From NCBI GenBank assembly GCA_020445605.1, contig JAGRGH010000055.1:1-64000 (forward strand): a DNA stretch of 64,000 nt, in the 5' to 3' direction. This DNA comes from Chromatiales bacterium. GTDB taxonomy: Bacteria; Pseudomonadota; Gammaproteobacteria; JAGRGH01. The first letter of the stretch is position 1, and each line of letters starts with the position of its first letter. Below are positions 24,323-26,809 of this stretch, piece after piece. Below the pieces are notes generated by a model, which was given only the letters and a program-made list of their open reading frames with translations, ran no database searches and had not been told where the DNA came from. The position numbers were made by a program, and so were the translations under genes.

Positions 24323-26809
24323 TCAGAACGGTATCGGCAAATGCGGATTGGCGGCAATCAGCATGGCCTTGAAGCGGCCGGCGATCTCGCCGAGCGCCTG
24401 GGCATTATCCGCCTCGAAGCGGATGCCGATACAGGGGGTCGCCTCGCAGGGACGCACGACGCCCCAGCCGCGCGGCAACTCGATCTTGATTCCGTAATCG
24501 CGGGTGATGCGTGCGCCAGGCAGATGCGCCTCCGGTTCCAGCGCAGCAATGAATTCCTGGACCTCACCCTCGTCGAAGGCGATGCGAAACTCGGGCGTCG
24601 AAGCCGTCTGCGGGGCCTGCGCGAAGAAGTCGGCCGAGCCGCGATCGTCCGCACTGAGCAGTTCCAGCAATCGCGCGCCGGCATACAGCGCGTCGGGCAG
24701 GCCGAACCAGCGGTCGCCGAACAGCAGGCGCCCGTCGAAGCTCCCGCCAAGCGGTGCCTTGGTTGCACGCATGCGCTCGTGGATGGCTGCGAAACCGCCG
24801 TTTGCCAGCACCGGCCGGCCACCGCTGGAAACGACCTCGGTCGGCACATAGCGCGAACACAGCGGGTCGAACACGACATCGCTGCCGGGATTTGCCGCGA
24901 GGATGTCATAGGCAAACAGAATCAACACCCGGTCGGCAAACGCGGCATTTCCGAGTTTGTCGACGGCCAGCAGCCGGTTGCCCGCGGCATCGAAGGCCAG
25001 ACCCAGATCGGCACGCCGCTTGCCGATCGCGCGCACCAGCGACGCCATGTGCGCCGGCACTCCGACATCCGGCCCGCGCGCGGGGAACGCCGGATCGGTT
25101 TCGCCGTTGATCAGCACGACATCGCAGCCGAGCGCCCGATACAGCCGCTCCGCCAAAGCACCAGTCGCGCCGTTGCCCGCATCCACGACGACGCGCAGCC
25201 GCGACGCCAGGGCAACGTCCTGCACCACGCGCTGGATGTAGGCTTCGCCCAGGTCTTCGTTGCGCAGCGCGCCGTCGCCCGTCAACAGGTTCTTGGAGAC
25301 CGCCCGTCCGCGCAGGGACTGCAATGCGTCGGCGGTCAGAAGTTCACCGCGCAGAACGACCTCGAAGCCGTTGAATTCCGGCGGCGAATTGCCGCCGCCG
25401 ACCATGACGCCGGTCTCGGGCTTCGCCGCCAGCGTCGCGTAATACAGCAGCGGCGCGGGCACGACGCCGAGATCGATCGCGGTGCGCCCGGACTTGCGCA
25501 GGCCGCGGATCAGGGCATCGGCAAGCACGGCGCTGGACTCACGCACGTCACGCGCAACAAAAACCTCGTTCTGGCCACGCTCGTAGGCCTCGCTGCCAAC
25601 GGCCTGCCCGATCAGAAACGCGCCCTCGGGCGTCACGAACTCATCGGCCAGACCGCAGATCGCGCTGTCGCGCAGGACATGCACCGGCAGCATGCGCACG
25701 GGGTCGAAATCACCTTCTTCAAGCAGGTCCAACGCCGGCGCTTCGATGGCGGGCATCGCATCGGACTCGGGTGCCGCGCGCTGGCTCTTGCGGCGCTTGA
25801 CGACGTACTCACGGGCGCGGTCGCGCAGCTGCTGGTAGGCGGGCGTGAATTCGGTCAGACGTACCGGGTAGTTCTCGTGCAGGCGCAACCGGAGCGCATC
25901 ATCGAAAATGCCGACGATGCCGGCGCCGTCGGCACGGATATGGCGGCGCAGCTGGGCGAACTGCAGATAGGTCGCCAGCCCGATCAGCAGCAGCGCGGCC
26001 ACGAGCGCCCCCCAGAACAGCAGCAGCTCGGCGACGCTCTCGCGCGCCGCGAGGCTGCCCCAGGCCACCGACCAGCTCGTCCCCGGAATATCCACCCGAT
26101 TGCGCGCCGCTCCGCGAACACTGCCCGCCGTCGTGCGCACCAGTTCATTCGACTCGCCCTGCACGATGGCCACCGGCAAACCCGCGCCGGCGGGGGCGAC
26201 AACCGCGCTCTTCAGATAGTCGAACGGGTACATCAGCAGCAGACTGCCAATCGGCTTGCCGCCATCACGAACCGGCCGCGCGACCACGACCCGGCGCGTG
26301 CTCTCGCCGTACAGATGCACCTCGAACGGCGGCGTGGCGCCGCGCTGGGCGCGGCGCGCCAGATCCACGGCGGCGTAGCCAAACCAGTCGCCCGCAGCGC
26401 GGTCTGGCGTAACACCGACTTCCGGCGGCAGGAGATGAACACGGCCAACCTGGACGGCGCGTGCGGCGAGCTGTTGCTCAGCTTGGGCGAGCGCGGCCGG
26501 CGAACCGTCGCGCAGCGCGACAACGGCGAGCGGATCCGCCGCAAGCTGGGCGGCGTTGCCCGCCAGCAAACCGAAACTATCGGAAACCTGCTGCGCGACC
26601 GCGACGGCGATCGCGCGCGCCGCATCGTCCTGCACGCGCTCGTGTTCACGGGCGTTCAGCCACTGCAACACCATGCCGAGCAGCACGAACAGCAGGGCGG
26701 TGAGCACGAAGGTCGAGAACGCCACGCGCGCGACGCTGGTCCGCGCCCGTAGCCGTTGTGCCGCGGCGGCAGGCGCCGGCCGTTTCCGTGAGAAGCGAAT
26801 TCCCTTCAT
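24323..26809 (-). CDS. AlgC-like membrane-anchored phosphomannomutase-fold protein, probable pseudoenzyme
   Basis: 828 residues. TM1 is at about 31-50, a probably periplasmic domain of about 200 residues follows, TM2 is at about 261-283, then a charged linker and a complete four-domain phosphohexomutase fold (about 375-828). The gene sits exactly where algC lies (coaBC-dut-algC-argB). All active-site loops are changed. The phosphoserine loop TGSHNPP is GGGNSPP (471-477, Gly473 at the Ser position). The metal loop DGDGD is DAAGN (607-611). The sugar loop GEMSGH is GSFDGR (689-694). The phosphate loop RASNTTP is RPCEATP (786-792). Framework motifs such as [28 protein letters not shown] and FRIAFDEG remain, so the frame is intact. 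Catalysis is very unlikely. A sensory or scaffolding role is inference. Confidence 0.85.

Follow-up and report, generated by a model that had tools for sequence, protein, structure and literature searches.

A candidate transmembrane receptor with a catalytically dead phosphohexomutase domain at the algC locus of a gammaproteobacterium

The window analyzed here, a stretch of 64,000 nucleotides from a Chromatiales bacterium, carries at the position of algC a gene whose reading frame is intact and whose catalytic loops are all altered. The question raised by this locus is whether such a protein is still an enzyme, is decaying, or is retained for some other role. The gene (24323-26809, minus strand, 828 amino acids) lies in the order coaBC-dut-algC-argB, with radC divergent, and this is the genomic position typical of AlgC. 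The gene and its neighbors are laid out as follows.

24323..26809, minus strand: CDS of the membrane-anchored AlgC-like pseudo-phosphohexomutase (full-length homology to long-form AlgC; Pfam PGM_PMM_I, II, III)
26666..26725, minus strand: first transmembrane segment, residues ~29-48 (Kyte-Doolittle maximum 2.48; helix 26-90 in the model)
26036..26665, minus strand: predicted periplasmic dCache sensor domain, residues ~49-258 (model pLDDT 87.9; top-scoring solved structures: dCache ligand-binding domains)
25970..26032, minus strand: second transmembrane segment, residues ~260-280 (Kyte-Doolittle maximum 2.46; helix 260-306 in the model)
25694..25969, minus strand: cytoplasmic helical linker, residues 281-372 (model helices 260-306 and 319-340, low confidence at 339-364)
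24326..25693, minus strand: pseudo-phosphohexomutase domain, residues 373-828 (structural match to P. aeruginosa PMM/PGM, 1pcj)
23382..24278, minus strand: argB, 44 nt downstream of the window algC gene; it marks the conserved algC locus and is also a neighbor in relatives
26820..27275, minus strand: dut, ending 10 nt upstream of the start codon of the algC-position gene; the same neighbor in several relatives
27256..28446, minus strand: coaBC (dfp), overlapping dut; the same neighbor in relatives

The dut gene and the algC-position gene probably form an operon. The preliminary description had named an intact, membrane-anchored AlgC-like pseudoenzyme in the algC position, and the 828-aa frame, the two hydrophobic segments and the coaBC-dut-argB surroundings bear this out. 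An ORF of 843 aa (24221-26752, plus strand) covers almost all of the gene on the opposite strand and is probably a GC-rich shadow frame. Elsewhere in the window, the ORFs at 58981-61794 (937 aa) and 14526-16523 (665 aa), both on the minus strand, gave no Pfam match at an E-value of 1e-5 and may be shadow frames.

The active site of phosphohexomutases is described as a scheme of four loops (PMC5570346, PMC7761743). Their counterparts in the window protein are the following.

25379..25399, minus strand: former phosphoserine loop, GGGNSPP (canonical TGSHNPP; S108G, H109N)
24977..24991, minus strand: former metal loop, DAAGN (canonical DGDGD; D244A, D246N)
24728..24745, minus strand: former sugar loop, GSFDGR (canonical GEMSGH; E325S, S327D, H329R)
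24434..24454, minus strand: former phosphate loop, RPCEATP (canonical RASNTTP; S423C, N424E, T425A)

The catalytic phosphoserine motif (TGSHNP or TASHNP) is thus replaced by GGGNSP, D242 is the sole survivor of the three metal-binding aspartates, GEMSGH with K285 has become GSFDGR with K285L, and the phosphate loop RxSNTxP reads RPCEATP, with R421 still present. All of the motifs reported earlier (GGGNSPP at 25379-25399, and DAAGN, GSFDGR, RPCEATP, DSAICG and NGFE) were recovered in a gap-free alignment to P. aeruginosa PMM/PGM, and K285L and R20C add to the changes spelled out before. In total, substitutions affect 15 of the 18 catalytic or ligand positions (P. aeruginosa numbering): Y17S, R20C, S108G, H109N, K118E, D244A, D246N, K285L, H308F (or G, depending on the alignment), E325S, S327D, H329R, S423C, N424E and T425A, leaving D242, R247 and R421. 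The losses thus include the general acid/base as well as the phosphoserine, two metal aspartates and contacts to sugar and phosphate. The list of these 18 residues follows established knowledge of the P. aeruginosa enzyme.

Such a pattern is not due to chance, because the window protein keeps only 7 of 26 invariant catalytic positions as against 58 of 78 framework positions (Fisher p = 3.6e-5; an invariant position being one at least 95% invariant among 52 homologues). A first survey of 112 homologues found none of the 18 residues changed in 102 proteins, one in eight, two in one and four in one, compared with the 15 of the window protein. With 15 of 18 residues changed, AlgC function is not to be expected of the protein, and, as judged from its sequence, it is almost certainly non-catalytic as a mutase. 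A sequencing or assembly error in a normal AlgC has next to no probability: nothing was found in its favor, the changes are in frame and spread over the domain with the framework kept, and independent genomes show parallel losses.

The fold itself has been preserved. Pfam PGM_PMM_I, II and III all score above their cut-offs, residues 373-828 align without gaps to residues 8-463 of P. aeruginosa PMM/PGM, and the AlphaFold2 model of the C-domain can be superimposed on 1pcj (Z 53.5; rmsd 2.3 over 456 residues; 39% identity). The four-domain alpha-D-phosphohexomutase fold is therefore present, as the preliminary description had supposed for the whole fold, and an enzyme fold conserved without its catalytic residues is what characterizes a pseudoenzyme. 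The N-terminal part, folded separately (pLDDT 87.9), has its best matches among solved structures in KinD (Z 14.0), DvhD (13.9), PctC (13.8) and CtaA (13.8). These top matches, at Z 12-14, are periplasmic dCache domains of histidine kinases, of chemoreceptors and of DvhD; Pfam dCache_1 matches the same region weakly, below its cut-off. Together with the two hydrophobic segments, the fold matches indicate that a double-Cache domain lies in the periplasm, flanked by the membrane helices, and the modeled protein reads as a transmembrane helix, a periplasmic dCache domain, a second transmembrane helix, a cytoplasmic linker and a phosphohexomutase fold. Canonical long-form AlgC from many other orders begins with the same TM-dCache-TM front; the membrane part is thus ancestral rather than a new fusion. 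By sequence comparison, the long form (TM-dCache-TM-PMM/PGM) is the usual AlgC of many gammaproteobacteria. At the loci L005-L058, drawn from many orders, the canonical long form seems to join a dCache receptor to an active mutase.

If the window protein is not a mutase, the reaction must be provided elsewhere, and the preliminary description had predicted that a true phosphomannomutase would be encoded at another locus. This expectation was confirmed. The genome (3.36 Mb, 63 contigs, 100% estimated completeness) encodes exactly three PF02878 proteins, namely GlmM (contig C37), a CpsG-type phosphomannomutase (contig C42) and the window protein, and a PF02880 search returned the same three and no others. 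The loops of the C42 protein are canonical (TASHNP, DGDFD, GEISGH and RKSNTEP). A ManC-like protein and RmlA are encoded as well, together with proteins assigned by sequence as GlgC-like and GalU-like; therefore both mannose-1-P and glucose-1-P are needed, and we infer that the C42 enzyme serves both, the mannose-1-P and probably also the glucose-1-P. In the C42 region (L070:4641-7391), the CpsG-type gene directly adjoins a phosphoribulokinase-like gene, and argF- and argD-like genes lie further along the contig.

Whether the altered domain is maintained or merely carried along can be judged from what has been kept. Outside the catalytic loops of the window C-domain, 126 of 129 hydrophobic-core sites are still hydrophobic, compared with 46 of 242 sites elsewhere, and 22 of 24 conserved glycines remain. 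The GC content by codon position resembles that of the neighboring genes. When a canonical relative was evolved neutrally in simulation to 43% identity, a mean of 7 stops arose and one of 60 runs stayed open; the real frame is open. Decay of the gene was rejected on these grounds (open frame, core and glycines), and the earlier suggestion of selected divergence rather than decay is supported. The change of pace was confined to the former enzyme half, because the C-domain shares a mean identity of 0.41 with homologues, as against 0.61 among the homologues themselves, whereas the value for the N-domain (0.23) is near that of the homologues (0.26); given its N-domain, the shortfall of the C-domain amounts to 10.7 SD.

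This C-domain is also the fastest branch in a survey tree of 53 proteins (1.18, with a median of 0.28), which also fits relaxed constraint and is a point against a selected pseudoenzyme. It favors the alternative that the gene is a relic, in which the membrane/dCache half alone is in use or the whole gene is on its way out with the C-domain carried along. The same alternative draws on the missing AlgC-type match in several genomes of another order (see below); it is nevertheless unlikely, given the retained core and glycines, the frame that is still open after large divergence, and the dN/dS values of analogous dead lines, in which the C-domain is lower than the N-domain. A scan of a collection of genome contigs with the window protein found no relative, and a search of the same collection with a degenerate DNA pattern encoding GGNSPPx(F/Y)NG matched five stretches, none of which encodes a homologue.

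Because the order of the window is represented by one genome, dN/dS was estimated (by NG86, leaving out saturated pairs with dS above about 1.5) in analogous dead AlgC of other genera. In genus g279, the dead C-domains gave 0.058 for G390/G444 (dS 0.90), 0.065 for G390/G479, 0.123 for G387/G456 (dS 0.15) and 0.18 for G460/G461; the pair G467/G401 gave 0.162. The N-domains of the same five pairs ranged from 0.09 to 0.40, and the C-domain was the lower of the two. In these analogous lines, therefore, the dead mutase domain is more tightly constrained than the sensor. The check for purifying selection was thus positive (about 0.06-0.2) in another genus, with the order of the window standing as a single genome. 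With the open frame and retained core of the window protein itself, and with these independent dead lines as analogues, we consider it probable that the window protein is under selection and not decaying.

Other long-form AlgC proteins with altered catalytic residues occur in family f116 and in the order of G349, which is not that of the window and in which 119 genomes were searched. Of the 18 residues, 10 are lost in G418 and G431, eight in G458, seven in G467 and G401, five in G469, G461 and G387, and four in G369 and G115, while G329 has S108G only. All eight members of genus g279, each a species (L216-L223, order of G349), have S108G, R247A and K285A. In all nine heavily altered lines examined, the window included, Ser108 has become Gly. 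Canonical loci mostly use AGC or AGT at residue 108, and among the dead lines each of the four Gly codons occurs, as expected if Gly108 is old and held. An IQ-TREE phylogeny of 66 C-domains, built with the catalytic columns removed, requires nine changes between active and inactive states (nine in bootstraps), at least five of them forced by well-supported branches. The changes were taken as losses, because canonical loops are common to nearly all other members. The long branch of the window protein makes its position in this tree uncertain, and sister groups suggested by FastTree and a quick tree were dropped for this reason. In most loci where the contig reaches, argB adjoins the dead AlgC, as does coaBC, with or without dut; at the f116 loci, neighbors on the argB side were not detected. 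Long-form AlgC at the same locus has, to all appearances, lost its catalytic residues repeatedly. This recurrence, like the identification of the periplasmic domain as a dCache sensor, goes beyond the preliminary description.

An alternative is that the protein has remained an enzyme but altered its chemistry, with D242, R247 and R421, together with the new E118, D327 and E424, making up another active site within the old cleft. The intact modeled fold, the remaining structurally conserved residues and the three kept catalytic residues are in line with it. However, apart from S108G the replacements differ among the dead lines, and no new motif is common to them beyond S108G, D279, V280 and R300, so that we regard a changed chemistry as quite improbable. 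The same catalytic loss, occurring several times in other bacteria, rather suggests reuse of the dead enzyme in a non-catalytic role.

In the order of G349, an extra CpsG-type gene accompanies 11 of 14 dead-AlgC genomes as against 4 of 62 canonical ones (p = 7e-8); counted by genus, which is fairer since genomes are not independent, the figures are 4 of 7 dead and 3 of 23 canonical (p = 0.03). These figures come from a manual tally of the match list (E below 1e-46), and at this cut-off the extra gene was not seen in the dead lines G467, G469 and G431. Purifying selection on the dead domain, combined with the tracking of CpsG with dead AlgC, points in these analogous lines to a retained pseudoenzyme and not to decay. 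Early stages of loss seem to be present in family f116 (L091/L134 of G329, L136 of G369 and L137 of G115; the sister G231 is canonical), as S108G alone, as D242A with D246N, or as four sugar/phosphate changes. These four genomes all carry a CpsG-type phosphomannomutase, and in those with an altered AlgC it is 55-57% identical to that of the window genome. Several genomes of the G349 order (G140, G253, G373, G377, G378 and others) gave no AlgC-type match, only GlmM and other mutases; AlgC thus seems dispensable in that order.

On balance, the window protein is probably a transmembrane dCache receptor with a catalytically dead phosphohexomutase as its cytoplasmic output domain. By analogy with known receptors, that it acts through a bound partner stands at about even chances. 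CpsG would have taken over catalysis, and the sensor-anchored copy would have been kept for a non-catalytic role, its clamp-like four-domain body responding to the dCache domain as a module for binding or for conformational change. A periplasmic small molecule bound by dCache might shift this clamp, by which a cytoplasmic partner, perhaps the active mutase, another nucleotide-sugar enzyme or a signaling enzyme, would be bound or released.

The earlier proposal that the protein could report sugar-phosphate levels is not supported as far as the old pocket is concerned. Such sensing is unlikely, because the sugar- and phosphate-holding residues (K285, E325, S327, S423, N424 and T425) are all changed too. 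A related idea, that of a PGM5-like receptor whose cleft binds a sugar phosphate without catalysis and signals outwards via dCache, is encouraged by PGM5, which is inactive yet binds glucose-1-P (PMC7761743), and by the milder dead lines (genus g279, G329), which retain most sugar and phosphate contacts. The window protein has changed the six contacts just listed and gained a glutamate in its phosphate loop, which leaves this idea rather improbable.

More broadly, and with somewhat less than even confidence, we propose a recurrent gammaproteobacterial receptor class in which dCache-phosphohexomutase sensor-enzymes are repeatedly made non-catalytic once another mutase covers metabolism, heavily altered lines always exchanging the phosphoserine for glycine. 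If true, this class would link a periplasmic signal to sugar-nucleotide or envelope control. Since ordinary long-form AlgC itself appears to combine a dCache receptor with a mutase, a periplasmic signal may directly control even the active enzyme. The stepwise losses seen across the lines (S108G only, then 5, 7-8, 10 and 15 residues) amount to a natural experiment in the passage from sensor-enzyme to receptor, and genus g279, with several species available, is a good test system for dead AlgC. Annotation pipelines are likely to call the gene phosphomannomutase/phosphoglucomutase, a label that would be wrong for this protein and for those of several other lineages at least.

A search of open-licence papers found none on a membrane-anchored or dCache-linked AlgC, and none on a phosphomannomutase pseudoenzyme. 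The closest known system is AlgC itself (P. aeruginosa; long forms in many Gammaproteobacteria), with which the window protein has in common the locus by dut, coaBC and argB, the fold (Z 53.5, 39% identity) and, in the long forms, the TM-dCache-TM front part, and from which it differs in 15 of 18 catalytic or ligand residues. PGM5 (aciculin), an inactive vertebrate phosphoglucomutase with binding partners, likewise has the phosphohexomutase fold without activity and is retained for a protein-binding role (PMC7761743), which for the window protein would be a putative one; PGM5, however, retains its phosphoserine, metal site and substrate binding and is not a membrane receptor, whereas the window protein has lost the former and possesses TM-dCache. 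In Bacillus and Staphylococcus, GlmM inhibits the cyclase CdaA by direct binding (PMC8573169, PMC6368335), so that a phosphohexomutase controls a membrane-bound signaling enzyme, as may be the case here; GlmM, unlike the window protein, is an active soluble enzyme. LapD and DvhD are inner-membrane receptors with catalytically dead enzyme domains, DvhD having a dCache domain (PMC13090378), and they resemble the window protein in combining a periplasmic sensory domain (the dCache of DvhD being a fold match at Z 13.9), membrane helices and a dead cytoplasmic enzyme domain. Their dead GGDEF-EAL and HD-GYP domains bind c-di-GMP, whereas the corresponding domain of the window protein is a phosphohexomutase.
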